A stretch of 64,000 bases of DNA from Pseudomonas hydrolytica. GTDB taxonomy: Bacteria; Pseudomonadota; Gammaproteobacteria; Pseudomonadales; Pseudomonadaceae. The position numbers and the translations under genes were made by a program. Position 1 is the first letter of the stretch, and each line of letters starts with the position of its first letter. Shown in pieces: positions 30,834 to 42,869 of this stretch. Where the stretch lies: NCBI RefSeq assembly GCF_021495345.1, contig NZ_CP099397.1, positions 4,843,001 to 4,907,000 on the forward strand, written 5' to 3'. Below the pieces are notes generated by a model that was given only the letters and a program-made list of their open reading frames with translations, was not told the origin of the DNA and made no database searches.

Positions 30834-30946
30834 GGCGGTTCTCGGCGGCTATTGACCATAGACTTTCAGCCGCGCGGCATTTGGTCAATGTCGTGCGCCG
30901 GCCGCCTGCGCACAATGCAGCGCGACGATAACAACAAGGATTGGCA

Positions 30947-33325
30947 ATGAAACGCACCCTGACTGCCGTTGCCCTGCTGGTCGCCGTCACTGGCGGCGGC
31001 CTGGGCTGGTATCTGCACGGCAAACAGCCACTGCGCGACGGCGAGCTTCGCCTCGACCAGCTGCAGGCGCCGGTCACCGTGCGCTACGACGAGCGTGGTG
31101 TACCGCACATCCGCGCCGAGCACGAAGCCGACCTGTACCGCGCCCTGGGCTATGTGCACGCCCAGGACCGCCTGTTCCAGATGGAAATCCTCCGGCGCCT
31201 GGCCCGAGGCGAGCTGGCCGAGGTGCTCGGCGAGAAGCTGGTGGCCACCGACCGCCTGTTCCGCACCCTGGGCATCCGCGCCCATGCCGACGAGTACGCC
31301 ACCCGCCTTGACCGCGACAGCCCGGCCGGCCGTGCCCTGCTGGCCTACCTCGACGGCATCAACCAGTACCAGACCAGCCGCCCCCTGCCGCTGGAGTTCG
31401 ACCTGCTGGGCATCGAGCCGCGCCCCTTCAGCGTCGCCGACACCCTCAGCGTGGCCGGCTACATGGCCTACAGTTTCGCCGCCGCCTTCCGTACCGAGCC
31501 GCTGCTGACCCACGTGCGCGACCAGCTCGGCGCCGATTACCTCGAGGTGTTCGACCTCGACTGGCATCCGCAGGGCGTGGTCGGCCCCGCGCTCGCCGAT
31601 GGCGACTGGCAGGACCTGGCCGCCATCGCCCGCCTCAGCCACGCGGCGCTGCAGGGCAGCGGACTGCCGCAGTTCGAAGGCAGCAACGCCTGGGCTGTCG
31701 CCGGCAACCGCACCGCCAGCGGCAAGCCGTTGCTGGCCGGCGACCCGCACATCCGCTTCGCCGTACCGGCGGTGTGGTACGAGGCACATCTGCAGGCGCC
31801 CGGCTTCGAGCTGTACGGCTACCACCAGGCGCTCAACCCGGTCGCCTCGCTGGGGCACAACCGCGACTTCGCCTGGAGCCTGACCATGTTCCAGAACGAT
31901 GACGTCGACCTGATCGCCGAGCGGGTCAACCCGAACAACCCCGCCCAGGTCTGGTATCAGGGCCGCTGGGTGGACCTGCAAAGCCGCAGCGAAACCATCG
32001 AGGTCAAGGACGGCGAGCCGGTGCAGCTGACTCTGCGCCGCTCGCCGCACGGCCCGCTGATAAACGATGCCCTGGGCGAGAACGCCGGCAGCACGCCGAT
32101 CGCCCTGTGGTGGGCCTTTCTGGAAACCGACAACCCGATTCTCGACGCCTTCTACCAGCTGAACCGCGCCGACAGCCTGGACAAGGCCCGCGCCGCCGCG
32201 CAGAAGATCGAAGCGCCCGGGCTCAACGTGGTCTGGGCCAACGCCAGCGGCGACATCGGCTGGTGGGCGGCGGCCCGGCTGCCGCTGCGCCCCGCCGGAG
32301 TCAATCCGAACTTCATCCTCGACGGCGCCAGCGGCGAAGCGGAGAAACCCGGCTGGCATCCGTTCAGCGCCAACCCGCAGGAAGAGAACCCGGCGCGCGG
32401 CTACATCCTCTCGGCCAACTACCAGCCGGTACCCGCCAGCGGCATCGAGATTCCCGGCTACTACAACCTGCCCGACCGCGGCCAGCGCCTGAACCAGCGC
32501 CTCGGCGACGCCGCGGTGAAATGGGACCTGGAAAACAGCCAGGCGCTGCAGCTCGACCCCGGCACCGGCTATGGCCCGCGCCTGCTGGCACCGCTGCTGG
32601 ACGAGTTGCGCGACGCCGCCGCAGACGATCAGGAGCGCGCGCTGGTGCAGCTGCTGGCCGAGTGGAATGGCGATCACCCGCTCGATTCAGTGGCCGCCAC
32701 CCTGTTCAATCAGCTGACCTACCAACTGGCCCGCGAGGCGATGGCCGACGAGCTGGGCGAGGCCCTGTTCGACAGCCTGCTGCTGACCCGCGTGCTGGAC
32801 ACCGCCCTGCCGCGCCTGACCGCGGCTGCCGACTCGCCCTGGTGGAATCGCCAGGGCAGCGGGCAGCGCGAGACACGTGCGCAGATCGTCGCCGCGGCCT
32901 GGCGCGCCAGCCTCGCCCACCTGCGCGGCCAGCTCGGCGACGACAGCCGCGCATGGACCTGGGGCCGTGCCCACACCCTGACGCACGAACATCCGCTGGG
33001 TCAGCAGCAGCCGCTGAACCGGCTGTTCAATGTCGGTCCGTTCGCCGCGCCCGGCGGCCATGAAACGCCGAACAACCTGTCGCACAAGGTCGGCCCCGCG
33101 CCCTGGCCGGTGGTATACGGCCCCTCGACTCGGCGCCTGGTGGATCTGGCCGACGCCGACAAGGCGCTGGGCGGCATTCCGGTAGGGCAGAGCGGCGTGC
33201 CGTTCGATGCCCATTACCAGGATCAGGCAGCGGCACACGTGGCCGGCCAGTACCAGCCGCAACACCTCAGCGAAGCGGACGTGGCCGCGCACGCCCGGGC
33301 GACGCTGAAGCTGCTGCCGCGCTGA
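30947..33325 (+). CDS. penicillin/acyl-homoserine-lactone acylase (HacB-like)
   Basis: A 792-residue Ntn-hydrolase precursor. A signal anchor (about 1-22) leads to the alpha chain; the autocleavage site is in FEGSNAWAVAG, with Ser246 as the new N-terminal nucleophile of the beta chain. YVHAQDRLFQMEILRR, a family signature, is at about 69-84, and LGHNRDFAWSLT and the WGRAHTLTHEHPLG region complete the site. It likely removes acyl chains from N-acyl homoserine lactones (quorum quenching) in the periplasm, as P. aeruginosa HacB (PA0305) does. AAGGA lies six bases before the start. It is divergent from an AraC regulator. Confidence 0.85.
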   Translation: MKRTLTAVALLVAVTGGGLGWYLHGKQPLRDGELRLDQLQAPVTVRYDERGVPHIRAEHEADLYRALGYVHAQDRLFQMEILRRLARGELAEVLGEKLVATDRLFRTLGIRAHADEYATRLDRDSPAGRALLAYLDGINQYQTSRPLPLEFDLLGIEPRPFSVADTLSVAGYMAYSFAAAFRTEPLLTHVRDQLGADYLEVFDLDWHPQGVVGPALADGDWQDLAAIARLSHAALQGSGLPQFEGSNAWAVAGNRTASGKPLLAGDPHIRFAVPAVWYEAHLQAPGFELYGYHQALNPVASLGHNRDFAWSLTMFQNDDVDLIAERVNPNNPAQVWYQGRWVDLQSRSETIEVKDGEPVQLTLRRSPHGPLINDALGENAGSTPIALWWAFLETDNPILDAFYQLNRADSLDKARAAAQKIEAPGLNVVWANASGDIGWWAAARLPLRPAGVNPNFILDGASGEAEKPGWHPFSANPQEENPARGYILSANYQPVPASGIEIPGYYNLPDRGQRLNQRLGDAAVKWDLENSQALQLDPGTGYGPRLLAPLLDELRDAAADDQERALVQLLAEWNGDHPLDSVAATLFNQLTYQLAREAMADELGEALFDSLLLTRVLDTALPRLTAAADSPWWNRQGSGQRETRAQIVAAAWRASLAHLRGQLGDDSRAWTWGRAHTLTHEHPLGQQQPLNRLFNVGPFAAPGGHETPNNLSHKVGPAPWPVVYGPSTRRLVDLADADKALGGIPVGQSGVPFDAHYQDQAAAHVAGQYQPQHLSEADVAAHARATLKLLPR

Positions 33326-33351
33326 CTGGGGCAGCGATCCGGAACACAGCG

Positions 33352-33391
33352 TGGTGCGCCATCGGTGCATCGCGCTGCAAGCTGGTGCACC
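33352..33391. promoter_or_regulatory. possible NtrC enhancer half-sites
   Basis: TGCGCCATCGGTGCA (33355-33369) and CTGCAAGCTGGTGCACC (33375-33391) contain GGTGCA/TGCACC half-sites, although the spacing is shorter than the usual TGCACC-N5-GGTGCA dyad. They lie 85-125 bases upstream of the sigma-54 promoter, a suitable enhancer distance. Confidence 0.4.
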
Positions 33392-33473
33392 GTGGCGCCG
33401 CAAATGGCGCCATGACCCTCGCCTGGGGCCCTACAGCCCGCGATAAACAGGCTTTCCAGACCCGGTAATAAAA

Positions 33474-33490
33474 TTGGCACACGCCCTGCA
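33474..33490 (+). promoter_or_regulatory. sigma-54 (-24/-12) promoter
   Basis: TTGGCACACGCCCTGCA has the invariant GG (33476-33477) and GC (33488-33489) exactly ten bases apart, with the TTGGCAC and TGCA context of RpoN promoters. It points to the right. The predicted start of transcription is near 33500, just before the first 47-base repeat module. Confidence 0.8.
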
Positions 33491-33499
33491 TAGGCTAAG

Positions 33500-33663
33500 G
33501 CAAACCCAGTTTTGGGGACCTTGGTACAGGCAGGCCGGGGAATCCCCTTCTTTATGCGACGCCACCGCGCGTCATGTGCAACGCGCCGCCGCTCGCCAAC
33601 GAGCACGGCGCCACCCGTTTCGGGGACCTTGGTACAGGCAGGCCGGGGAATCCCCCTCTTTAT
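33500..33663 (+). ncRNA. nrsZ: NrsZ-like nitrogen-regulated small RNA (two modules)
   Basis: Between hacB and the hypothetical gene at 33660 there is no credible protein gene. Instead a 47-base module occurs twice (33509-33555 and 33617-33663) with two differences. Each contains GGGGACCTTGGTACAGGCAG and ends in a GGGGAATCCCC hairpin followed by TCTTTAT, resembling a processing or termination site. A sigma-54 promoter sits ten bases upstream. In P. aeruginosa the NtrC/RpoN-dependent sRNA NrsZ lies between ntrC and PA5126, is cut into similar modules of about 60 bases and controls rhamnolipid genes. Here the PA5126-like gene and trmL follow. The 3' end is approximate and overlaps the convergent gene's stop. 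Confidence 0.72.
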
Positions 33664-34103
33664 TCGGGACGCAGTGCCAGTCGGGCACGCCAGCGTCCAT
33701 CCTCCTGCGCACCGTGCCATTGCCCCGCCAGCGGGCGCGGTGACACCAGCACCAGCAGCAGATCCCGTCCATCACGCTGCACGCGCCAGTTGACCAGCCC
33801 CAGCGCCAGGTTCAACTGGCCCTCACGCTCGCGCCCGTAGGCATTCTCGTAGCGATACACCAGGGCGCCGCCGACAGGCTCGGCATGTGCCTGCGGCTCG
33901 CGGTTGAAATGCAGCTGCAGCCCCTCGGCCCAGGGCTCGACATCCTCGATGCGCAGTGGCGGCGGGTCGAACAGCCGGCCGAGCATCATGCCGACGAGAA
34001 AGGCGATAAGCATCACCGAGCCCACGAAGCGCCAGCGAAGTCGCGGCCGAGGATCCTCGACCGGCGTAGAATGGCGGTCATCCCTGTGTTCGGAGCCCTG
34101 CAT
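33660..34103 (-). CDS. hypothetical single-pass membrane protein (PA5126-like)
   Basis: A protein of about 147 residues with an Arg-rich cytoplasmic leader, one membrane segment (FVGSVMLIAFLVGMMLG) and a small periplasmic domain rich in charged beta-like strands (GALVYRYENAYGREREGQLNLALG). I do not recognise a family. The ATG at 34103 shares a CATG palindrome with the trmL ATG at 34102, so the two divergent genes start on the same four bases; an in-frame ATG at 34115 lies inside trmL. Its last codons run into the second module of the sRNA on the other strand. Confidence 0.65.
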   Translation of the reverse strand: MQGSEHRDDRHSTPVEDPRPRLRWRFVGSVMLIAFLVGMMLGRLFDPPPLRIEDVEPWAEGLQLHFNREPQAHAEPVGGALVYRYENAYGREREGQLNLALGLVNWRVQRDGRDLLLVLVSPRPLAGQWHGAQEDGRWRARLALRPE

Positions 34104-34566
34104 GTTCCACGTCATCCTCTTTCAACCGGAAATTCCACCCAATACCGGCAACATTATCAGGCTGTGCGCCAACAGCGGCTGCCAACTGCACCTGATCGAG
34201 CCACTGGGTTTCGAACTGGACGACAAGCGCCTGCGCCGCGCCGGCCTGGACTATCACGAGTACGCCACGCTCAAGCGCCACGCCGATCTGCAGAGCTGCC
34301 TGGACAGCCTCGGTCAGCCGCGCCTGTTCGCCTTCACCACCAAGGGCTCGCAACCCTTCCACGAGATCGCCTACCAGCCGGGCGATGCCTTTCTGTTCGG
34401 CCCGGAGAGCCGCGGCCTGCCGGAGGAAGTACGCAACGCCCTGCCACCCGAGCAGCGCGTGCGCCTGCCGATGCGCGCTGGTTGCCGCAGCCTGAATCTG
34501 TCCAACACCGTGGCCGTGACCGTTTACGAGGCCTGGCGACAGAACGGCTTTGCCGAAGCCGAGTAA
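34102..34566 (+). CDS. trmL: tRNA (cytidine(34)-2'-O)-methyltransferase
   Basis: A 154-residue SPOUT methyltransferase that 2'-O-methylates the wobble base of tRNA-Leu species. The trefoil-knot motifs are PEIPPNTGNIIRLCANSG at 9-26, LFGPESRGLPEEV near 97-109 and LPMRAGCRSLNLSNTVAV at about 125-142. The length is standard. Its start overlaps that of the divergent hypothetical gene. It is convergent with secB, from which it is separated by a bidirectional hairpin. Confidence 0.96.
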   Translation: MFHVILFQPEIPPNTGNIIRLCANSGCQLHLIEPLGFELDDKRLRRAGLDYHEYATLKRHADLQSCLDSLGQPRLFAFTTKGSQPFHEIAYQPGDAFLFGPESRGLPEEVRNALPPEQRVRLPMRAGCRSLNLSNTVAVTVYEAWRQNGFAEAE

Positions 34567-40402: not shown

Positions 40403-41158
40403 TTACAGGTAATTCTCGGTGATATCGTCGATATAGCCTTCGGCACGCATCTCGTTCAGCGCCTTCTGCAGACGCTCGACGACCTCGTCCGGAGTGTCCT
40501 TGTTCAGCGCCAGATACAGCTCGGCATCGTTGAAGCGCAGTACGGTATTGAGGCCGCTGACCTCTTCCTGCTTGGCCAGGTAACGGCCGACCGGGTCGGT
40601 GGTGGCCCACAGGTCGATCTGCCCGCGCACCAGCTTCTTCACGTTCTCCTGATCACGCAGGGCATTGATCGGCTGCAGGCCCTGGCTTTCCAGATGCTGG
40701 CTGACCGCATCGTTCTTGTAGGCGCCGATGCGGTACTGGGCGGCGTCCTGCAGGCTCGACACCTTGATGTCGTTGCCCGGCGCCGCAAGCAGCACCCAAC
40801 CGGTCTTGGCCAGCGGGCCGACCCACTTGAACAGCGGCTGACGCTCGGGCGTGTAGGTGGTGGAGAACAGGCCGTAGTTGGGCTTGTCCAGGGTCAGGCG
40901 GTACAGGCGATCCCAGGGAAAGCGCAGGGTCAGGGTGTAGTCGATGCCGGCACGCTTGAACATCTCGCGCACGATGTCGGCGCTGATGCCGTCGATGCCG
41001 TCGTCGCGGGCGAAGTTCTTGTCGTCCACCGCCATGTTGAAGGGCGGGAAATTCTCGGTCAGCAGCACCACCTTGTAATCCGCCGGCAGCTGCGCGTGGG
41101 CGAAGCCGGTGGCGAGAAACAGGGCGACAAACAGGCTTTTCTTCAGAGTATTCAGCAT
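40403..41158 (-). CDS. periplasmic amino-acid-type substrate-binding protein (first of three paralogues)
   Basis: A 251-residue SBP_bac_3-family protein: signal peptide about 1-22 (LFVALFLATGFAHA), then TENFPPFNMAVDDKNFARDD, the usual ligand-loop region, and the hinge segment around LRDQENVKKLVRGQIDLWA. It shares most of its motifs with the genes at 41295 and 42135. None has a permease or ATPase gene next to it, so these may be orphan binding or sensing proteins. The ligand is unknown; polar amino acids are typical of the family. Confidence 0.88.
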   Translation of the reverse strand: MLNTLKKSLFVALFLATGFAHAQLPADYKVVLLTENFPPFNMAVDDKNFARDDGIDGISADIVREMFKRAGIDYTLTLRFPWDRLYRLTLDKPNYGLFSTTYTPERQPLFKWVGPLAKTGWVLLAAPGNDIKVSSLQDAAQYRIGAYKNDAVSQHLESQGLQPINALRDQENVKKLVRGQIDLWATTDPVGRYLAKQEEVSGLNTVLRFNDAELYLALNKDTPDEVVERLQKALNEMRAEGYIDDITENYL

Positions 41159-41294
41159 AAGACGTTCCGCTCGCGTGATTTGTGGTTATGGCTAGCGACA
41201 TCCGTGCATGGCCCCCGAGGCCGGGTCGCCGGGCTCGCAGACTCTGCCATTCCTTGGCAAGCGGCCGGCTCATGGCCGGCCGCATATTCGGTGC

Positions 41295-42050
41295 TTACAA
41301 GTAGCTGTTGAGAATATCGTCGACGAAGCCTTCGCTGCGCATCTGGTCGAGGGCTGCCTGCAGTCTGGCGACAATCTCGTCGGGCACGTCCCTGTTCAGC
41401 GCCAGGTACAGCTCGGCGCTGTCGAAACGCAGCACCGTGCGCAGGCCGGAAATGCCCTCCTGCTTGGCCAGGTAGCGACCCGCGGGATCACCGGTGGCCC
41501 AGAGGTCGATCTGGCCGGCCACCAGCTTCCTGGCGTTTTCCTGGTCACGCAACGAGGCGCTGTGCTCGACGCCCTTCTCGGTCAGGTATTCGGAGATGGC
41601 ATCGCCCTTGTAGGCGCCGATGCGGTATTGCTTGGCCTCGTCCAGGCTGGCGAGGTTGATGGGATTGTCGCCCTTGGCCAGCAGCACCCAGTCATCCGGC
41701 CCGATCGGGCCGACCCACTTGAACAGCTGCTCACGCTCCGGCAGACGAGCCGTAACGAAGACTCCGTAGCCCGGTTTCTCCAGCGCCAGCTTGTAGATGC
41801 GATCCCAGGGAAAACGCAGCGTCAGGTTGTACTTGACCCCGGCACGCTTGAACATCTCCTTGACGATGTCCACGGCGATGCCGTCGATGCTGTCTTCCTG
41901 GGCGAAGTTCTTGCCATTGATCGCCATGTTGTACGGCGGGAAGTTCTCGGTCAGCAGGACCACGCTGTAGTTCGGATCCACTTCGGCGCGCGCAGCACCG
42001 GTCAGCACCACAAGGGTGCCGCCTAGCGCGAGTAGCAGGCGTTTGAACAT
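41295..42050 (-). CDS. periplasmic amino-acid-type substrate-binding protein (second of three paralogues)
   Basis: 251 residues, collinear with its neighbours: signal peptide about 1-22 (LALGGTLVVLTGAARA), TENFPPYNMAINGKNFAQED, GIAVDIVKEMFKRAGV, NLTLRFPWDRIYKLALEKP, SLRDQENARKLVAGQIDLWA and the ending YLALNRDVPDEIVARLQAALD. It is closest to the gene at 40403 and separated from it by 136 bases without an obvious terminator. The family is SBP_bac_3; the ligand is unknown. Confidence 0.88.
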   Translation of the reverse strand: MFKRLLLALGGTLVVLTGAARAEVDPNYSVVLLTENFPPYNMAINGKNFAQEDSIDGIAVDIVKEMFKRAGVKYNLTLRFPWDRIYKLALEKPGYGVFVTARLPEREQLFKWVGPIGPDDWVLLAKGDNPINLASLDEAKQYRIGAYKGDAISEYLTEKGVEHSASLRDQENARKLVAGQIDLWATGDPAGRYLAKQEGISGLRTVLRFDSAELYLALNRDVPDEIVARLQAALDQMRSEGFVDDILNSYL

Positions 42051-42134
42051 GGCATTTTCTCTTTCTAGGTGTAGCAGACGCCATCAGCATAACCGCCGAG
42101 CCCTCCCCGGCCCAGCGATTACTGGCAGTGTGCC

Positions 42135-42869
42135 TCAGTAACGCGCTTCGATGTTCTTCAGCGCACCCTCGGCACGCAATGCATCCAGCGCAGCCTGCAA
42201 CTTCTGCACCACCTCATCGGGCGTTTGCAGGTTGAGGGCCAGATAGAGTTCGGCCGTATGCAGGTGCTGCACGACCCTGAGGTTCTCCATGCCTTCCTGA
42301 CGCGCCACGAAACGACCAGCCTGATTGGAGGTTACCCACAGGTCGATCTGCCCACGCTCCAGCTTGCGGACGTTCTCGGTGTCACGCAGCGCGGTCTGCA
42401 CCTCCAGGCCTCTGTCCAGGAGGAACTGGGTCTTGGCGTCGCCCTTGTAGCCACCGATCCGGTAACGGCGCGCGTCCTCGATGCTGGCCAGCTGGATCGG
42501 GCTGTCGCCCTTGGCGAACAGCACCCATTCGTTCCTGGCGATGGGCCCGACCCATTTGAACAGGCCCTCGCGCTCCGCCGTGCGTGCGGTGGAGAACAGG
42601 CCGTAACCGACATCGTCCAGCGTCTGCTGATACACGCGCTGCCAGGGGAAACGCAGGATCTGCTGACACTCCATCTCGGCGCGCTCGCACACCGCACGCA
42701 AGATGTCGGAGCTGATGCCGGTCACACCATCGTCGCGGGCGTAGTTGGTGCCGGATATCGACATGTTGAAGGGGGGCAGATTCTCCGTGAGCAGCACCAG
42801 CGGCTCGGCGCGCGCCAGGCTGAGGCCACACGACAGGGCCAGGACGGTCAAGAATCGAATGAGGAACAT
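42135..42869 (-). CDS. periplasmic amino-acid-type substrate-binding protein (third of three paralogues)
   Basis: 244 residues with signal peptide about 1-21 (FLTVLALSCGLSLARA), TENLPPFNMSISGTNYARDD, ALRDTENVRKLERGQIDLWV and LYLALNLQTPDEVVQKLQAAL. It is more divergent than the other two: it has a cysteine pair (VCERAEMECQQ) in the segment where they have MFKRAG, and a shorter tail. It is the most upstream of the three and lies 212 bases after hisF on the same strand. Confidence 0.87.
   Translation of the reverse strand: MFLIRFLTVLALSCGLSLARAEPLVLLTENLPPFNMSISGTNYARDDGVTGISSDILRAVCERAEMECQQILRFPWQRVYQQTLDDVGYGLFSTARTAEREGLFKWVGPIARNEWVLFAKGDSPIQLASIEDARRYRIGGYKGDAKTQFLLDRGLEVQTALRDTENVRKLERGQIDLWVTSNQAGRFVARQEGMENLRVVQHLHTAELYLALNLQTPDEVVQKLQAALDALRAEGALKNIEARY

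Follow-up and report, generated by a model that had tools for sequence, protein, structure and literature searches.

A predicted two-module NrsZ locus with a sigma-54 promoter sequence, separated from ntrC, in Pseudomonas hydrolytica

In Pseudomonas hydrolytica, two nearly identical modules lie behind a sigma-54 promoter-like sequence in the gap between a penicillin acylase family gene and a convergent gene, raising the question of whether they form NrsZ, a small RNA (sRNA) known from P. aeruginosa, and what their repetition and shared loop are for. We analyzed the window, i.e. the 64,000-nucleotide stretch holding this locus (contig NZ_CP099397.1, positions 4,843,001–4,907,000), whose numbering is used for the coordinates below. 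An initial annotation, made from the sequence alone, had proposed NrsZ as the probable identity and called for a covariance-model search; the Rfam NrsZ model (RF02695) matches window 33503–33730 (+) with 92.4 bits, above the curated gathering score of 76.9 (E 1.5e-21), and this is its single match in the whole genome. A chance origin is excluded by this E value and by the occurrence of the same arrangement in relatives. The resemblance to NrsZ modules of other Pseudomonas on which the proposal had been staked is likewise present, a one-module covariance model finding matches in 197 of 199 sampled genus genomes. Assignment of the locus to NrsZ, as an orthologue of a known Pseudomonas sRNA family, is supported by these comparisons; the P. 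aeruginosa member is entered as PA5125.1 in a published table (PMC6321483). Membership of the P11 (RF00625; 31.4 bits, cut-off 70) or rpfG RNA (RF03023; 21.9 bits, cut-off 75.9) families was rejected, both scores being far under their cut-offs. These weak matches run from the promoter stretch on (window 33463–33612), and both models open with sigma-54 promoter-like sequence, a hint that P11 and rpfG RNAs are perhaps sigma-54 transcribed too.

Module 1 (33509–33555, +) and module 2 (33617–33663, +), delimited by sequence, fold and the module covariance model, are each 47 bases long, are offset by 108 bases and differ at two positions (33513/33621 and 33548/33656). Their hairpins (33514–33547 and 33622–33655) carry the loop ACAGGCAG at 33526–33533 and 33634–33641, and each is followed by TCTTTAT, the second copy of which (33657–33663) shares bases with the convergent gene's stop codon. 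Reviews name ACAGGCAG as the NrsZ motif (PMC9308961, PMC8395346). The linker between the modules (33556–33616, +) varies in sequence and length among aligned relatives. The repeats are as initially described, including their number of two and not three: the one-module model detects just these two across the 5.29-Mb genome, with E values of 9.2e-20 and 1.4e-19, and the third hairpin of the Rfam model aligns poorly here beyond about 33664. Nor is a protein gene indicated, since the module spacings in close relatives (106, 108 or 109) differ by non-multiples of three.

The fold of each module is a two-part stem whose 8-base loop is closed by a U·G pair. As isolated 38-nt hairpins the modules reach −18.4 and −18.3 kcal/mol (z −1.97 and −1.41), and the whole 168-nt stretch folds preferentially as a long module-1/module-2 duplex. 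Since 61-nt hairpins with flanks are no more stable than shuffles (z −0.46 and 0.19), the support for the hairpin structure is comparative, not energetic. An alignment fitted to the structure was built from the best 150 of 171 matches, of which 117 are distinct. In it, 91.7% of stem cells pair, and four pairs are changed on both sides, compared with a shuffled mean of 1.6; none of 500 shuffles scored as high, and slid versions gave 0 or 1. Against the stem, 69 of 500 shuffles yielded at least as many pair types, and a version slid by +3 had a higher covariation score (0.230 versus 0.199) and more double-changed cells (37 versus 16), although this version pairs in only 54.6% of cells. Pairs at columns 12–39, 13–38, and 14–35 are unpaired in 39, 26, and 45 of the 117 modules, respectively, and the position of the outer stem seems to differ by one base between sequence variants. 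The transcript would span about 33501 to about 33664 and may be cut at its single-stranded CUUUA tails to give units of about 45 nt; for P. aeruginosa NrsZ, 40-nt and 140-nt species are described in reviews (PMC9308961, PMC8395346).

The proposed GG-N10-GC promoter is present as TGGCACACGCCCTGCA at 33475–33490 (+; GG at 33476–33477, N10, GC at 33488–33489), from which a transcription start near 33501 is predicted. Among the matches listed with at least 300 bases upstream, all 133 loci have TGGCA[CT]-N6-TGC[AT] ahead of their first module, a count that includes the window's own copy and from which loci with shorter upstream sequence and chance matches were dropped; in 125 of the 133 the first hairpin starts 37–40 or 53 bases past the first base of the motif. 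Farther upstream, a block of ~54 bases (33346–33399, +), aligned in seven loci of the window's group, is conserved amid variable sequence and contains GGTGC half-sites, making it a candidate NtrC enhancer. Scored against what we take to be the NtrC-site consensus, the best 17-mers lie at 33373–33389 (9 of 12 consensus positions) and 33386–33402 (10 of 12); the best score is above the average of 7.8 obtained on shuffling this locus, but it is weak and not convincing. Because the NtrC-like words are of this quality, we infer NtrC control of the window NrsZ from its P. aeruginosa homologue, for which reviews describe NtrC/RpoN control under nitrogen limitation (PMC9308961, PMC8395346). By analogy, NtrC would bind the candidate block and RpoN would transcribe NrsZ under nitrogen shortage.

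On the upstream side, a penicillin amidase (acylase) family gene (30944–33325, +; PF01804, 727.8 bits) occupies the position that ntrC holds in most relatives. The convergent gene downstream (33660–34115, −), whose stop codon lies inside the end of module 2, has no Pfam or NCBIfam match; we take it to be PA5126-like, and it is followed by trmL (34102–34566, +; TIGR00185, 197.4 bits versus a cut-off of 190.6). Both downstream neighbours had been anticipated, as had the lack of ntrC before NrsZ: ntrC (795 bits; G000:C1:4776845–4778215) lies ~98 kb upstream on the same strand, and behind it is a gene reading like a TM2-domain protein, with no NrsZ there. Of the ntrC–PA5126 flanking seen in P. aeruginosa, which we did not treat as defining, the PA5126-like side is present and the ntrC side absent. 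The locus shares with P. aeruginosa NrsZ the Rfam model, the sigma-54 promoter sequence, the ACAGGCAG hairpin modules, and the PA5126-like gene and trmL downstream, but differs in having two modules, where P. aeruginosa NrsZ has three, and in adjoining the acylase gene instead of ntrC.

The contig scan comprised at least 120 stretches, from which four chance matches (L044, L057, L120, and L137) were dropped; the remaining 116 stretches represent 115 contigs, L091 and L150 being neighbours. Among the matches listed, in 88 named loci with at least 1500 bases upstream, ntrC is directly upstream in 65, an acylase gene in 5 and neither in 18; the lost ntrC link is thus not peculiar to the window strain, as 23 of 88 lack ntrC at this position. 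At least six named loci have the acylase-upstream arrangement of the window, i.e. those of P. yangonensis (L063), P. mendocina (L103), Pseudomonas sp. 8O (L113), P. oleovorans (L116), P. composti (L139), and P. alcaliphila (L143). The P. mendocina-group loci share with the window the upstream acylase gene, the conserved block and the promoter, and their modules are spaced by 106–109 bases in the five two-module loci; L063 differs in having a third module, produced by duplication of a stretch of about 109 bases. NrsZ with ntrC upstream and a PA5126-like gene downstream was also seen in contigs labelled Pantoea sp. Cy-639 (L142) and Paucimonas sp. (L123), where ntrC is about 92% identical to that of the window genome; these are perhaps misnamed Pseudomonas.

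Downstream, among the matches listed with at least 700 bases on that side (102 loci), a convergent PA5126-like gene ends within 110 bases of the last module in 86, lies farther away in 2 and is absent in 14; in L086 and L093, ~3.5 and 2.7 kb separate NrsZ from the otherwise adjacent gene. Such proximity would suit hairpins that serve only as terminators in tandem, or to space out the convergent genes, and have no regulatory RNA role. A terminator needs no loop sequence, however, and yet the loop is conserved; the sigma-54 promoter sequence accompanies the modules in all 133 listed loci with at least 300 bases upstream, a simple scan of the window found no terminator-like site (TCTTTAT being a weak U-tract), and the P. 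aeruginosa homologue is described in reviews as a regulatory sRNA (PMC9308961, PMC8395346). We consider a terminator or spacer role by itself very improbable.

The initial annotation had implied that a two-module form without ntrC is rare, which is not supported: module number ranges from 1 to 8 and ntrC linkage varies across the genus, and the form in the window is, on sequence comparison, one of many natural forms. Across the 199 genus genomes, counted with stricter filters so that the numbers may be low, there are 0 modules in 2 genomes, 1 in 60, 2 in 39, 3 in 67, 4 in 19, 5 in 7, 6 in 1, 7 in 3, and 8 in 1. The two module-free genomes, G037 (~80 contigs) and G157 (~270 contigs), may reflect loss or an assembly gap. 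At the family level, 116 of 148 genomes carry the module, which is represented in 15 of 19 genera. Module spacing is mostly ~60–110 bases; linkers can be almost absent, since modules are ~43 bases apart in the arrays of P. seleniipraecipitans (L148:4263–4441) and P. straminea (L053:5051–5230), where each unit holds little beyond its hairpin and CUUU tail. By title and abstract we found no paper on module-number variation in NrsZ, which the founding paper (Wenner 2014) may report.

In the loci listed up to L155, a pattern tolerating three mismatches found 387 modules, and all 387 have ACAGGCAG. The same loop is present in 362 of 362 modules found by a stem pattern that left the loop free, and in 44 of 44 modules found loop-free in loci L186–L214, which were brought in by the covariance model; many loci were picked with a pattern containing the loop, which biases these counts toward invariance. 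In 166 of 166 distinct modules from two alignments, restricted to best matches, the loop and its closing U·G pair are unchanged, and the neighbouring G-C pair is A-U in nine. No half-decayed modules were found in 85 loci searched at E up to 1: of 190 matches, 187 score at least 56 bits, and the rest are two L107 fragments beside N runs and one chance hit. Together, the invariant loop and invariant closing U·G would also fit a protein-binding hairpin. In another reading, the loop would be an RsmA/CsrA-type binding site: GUACAGG is similar to the beginning of the SELEX consensus, UACAGG lies around the hairpin loop, and rhamnolipid and swarming outputs overlap the Rsm pathway. RsmA decoys of the CsrB/RsmY/RsmZ type carry GGA in their hairpin loops, whereas the ACAGGCAG loops of the window do not, and this core is missing from the loop in every one of the 387 modules; we give an RsmA/CsrA-type site hardly any credence.

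We consider it very probable that the locus is NrsZ with a sigma-54 promoter sequence and two modules, predicted to be transcribed through RpoN/NtrC in nitrogen shortage and likely to yield loop-pairing regulatory RNAs; the family match, promoter, two modules, invariant loop and lost ntrC linkage are seen directly in the sequence. Each module would act as a short regulatory RNA that pairs with mRNAs through its ACAGGCAG loop, which could bind UGCCUGU near ribosome binding sites. The target reported for P. aeruginosa NrsZ is rhlA, via its 5′UTR (PMC9308961, PMC8395346). At E 1e-95 or better, rhlA is present in 36 of 398 family genomes; unlike in P. aeruginosa, it was not found in the window genome at this threshold, although a more distant homologue, the genome's phaG, exists. 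A gene of genome G317 that we take to be RhlA-like has TTGCCTGT 33 bases before its ATG, ahead of GGGAGG, and this element forms seven Watson-Crick pairs and one G·U pair with the loop, in agreement with the placing of the rhlA interaction in the 5′UTR by reviews (PMC9308961, PMC8395346). Among the upstream regions of 30 of the 38 rhlA matches, [CT]TGCCTGT occurs within 120 bases only in that of G317; near-misses are two regions with TTGCCTGG at −31 and two with TTGCCTGC at −55, each with one mismatch, at the last base.

No conserved NrsZ target was found in ten genomes scanned for the seed before GGA and ATG, counting only seeds followed by both within about 40 bases. The ten-genome scan gave 95 rows, 87 of which were read (the other eight being ttcA-like coding hits and two repeats); a second gave 58 rows and a scan of the window genome 71, with 30 rows in each covered at the DNA level. 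Those recurrent seed-bearing genes that were followed up either owe their sharing to coding sequence or lack conservation. One lead was striking, given that RhlA and PhaG are homologues: in G003 (L278), two copies of CTGCCTGT lie before the start of a presumably PhaG-like gene. Within 200 bases upstream, CTGCCTGT occurs in only 2 of 70 phaG-like regions (some of rhlA type), another 42 carry CTACCTGT, which mismatches the invariant C of the loop, and the remaining 26 carry neither sequence. CTGCCTGT is present in one (L418) of 15 further regions (14 phaG-like), and the window genome's own phaG (L365) has no CTGCCTGT within one mismatch. We therefore rejected phaG as a conserved target. The conserved block before phaG looks like a promoter; a strongly conserved dyad, CAGGCGTATGCCTACCTGTCA, lies ~60–90 bases before the ATG in many phaG upstream regions (L345, L349, and L350), is different in the P. 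mendocina group, and is promoter- or operator-like. The pilM–pilN junction was also set aside: TTGCCTGT precedes what we take to be pilN in 3 of 10 genomes, but the seed is present in only 5 of 30 loci, across which the codons of this region vary synonymously. Two further genes shared between genomes, by our reading one for a BON-domain-like lipoprotein and one for a malonate decarboxylase-like subunit, have common upstream letters that appear to belong to the end of the coding sequence before them.

The lack of a conserved mRNA target in these scans would be expected if NrsZ were a multivalent decoy, its repeated loop sequestering an RNA-binding protein or a second RNA, with the dose set by module number. 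The range of one to eight modules with the loop and closing U·G unchanged fits such a role, and the arrangement resembles CsrB/RsmY-type decoys. However, 60 of 199 genomes have a single module, the RhlA-like gene of G317 does have a sequence complementary to the loop close to its ribosome binding site, and a review gives the first 60 nt as a functional unit in P. aeruginosa (PMC9308961); we consider a decoy unlikely and prefer loop pairing with mRNAs.

Although the window gene is an ordinary orthologue in an already known family, its relatives reframe that family, in which the loop is unchanged in all modules of the loci listed up to L155 and the reported target is found in fewer than a tenth of family genomes. 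Because the loop is invariant while most family genomes are without rhlA at E 1e-95, the general job of NrsZ is not settled by rhlA, and the question exposed, of moderate interest, is what the loop is kept for where the reported target is mostly absent. The promoter is retained even where rearrangement removed ntrC, and the natural series of one to eight modules lends itself directly to testing the purpose of the repeats. We tentatively suggest, as one possibility, that NrsZ is not at root a rhlA regulator with repeats but an array of one invariant hairpin, present throughout the family and variable in copy number; control of rhlA would then be a late addition of the P. aeruginosa lineage, and module number would tune the strength of the nitrogen response. 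Elsewhere in the window, three consecutive open frames of 244–251 codons (40403–42869, −), starting VVLLTENFPPF, VVLLTENFPPY, and LVLLTENLPPF, may be a tandemly repeated periplasmic binding protein gene.
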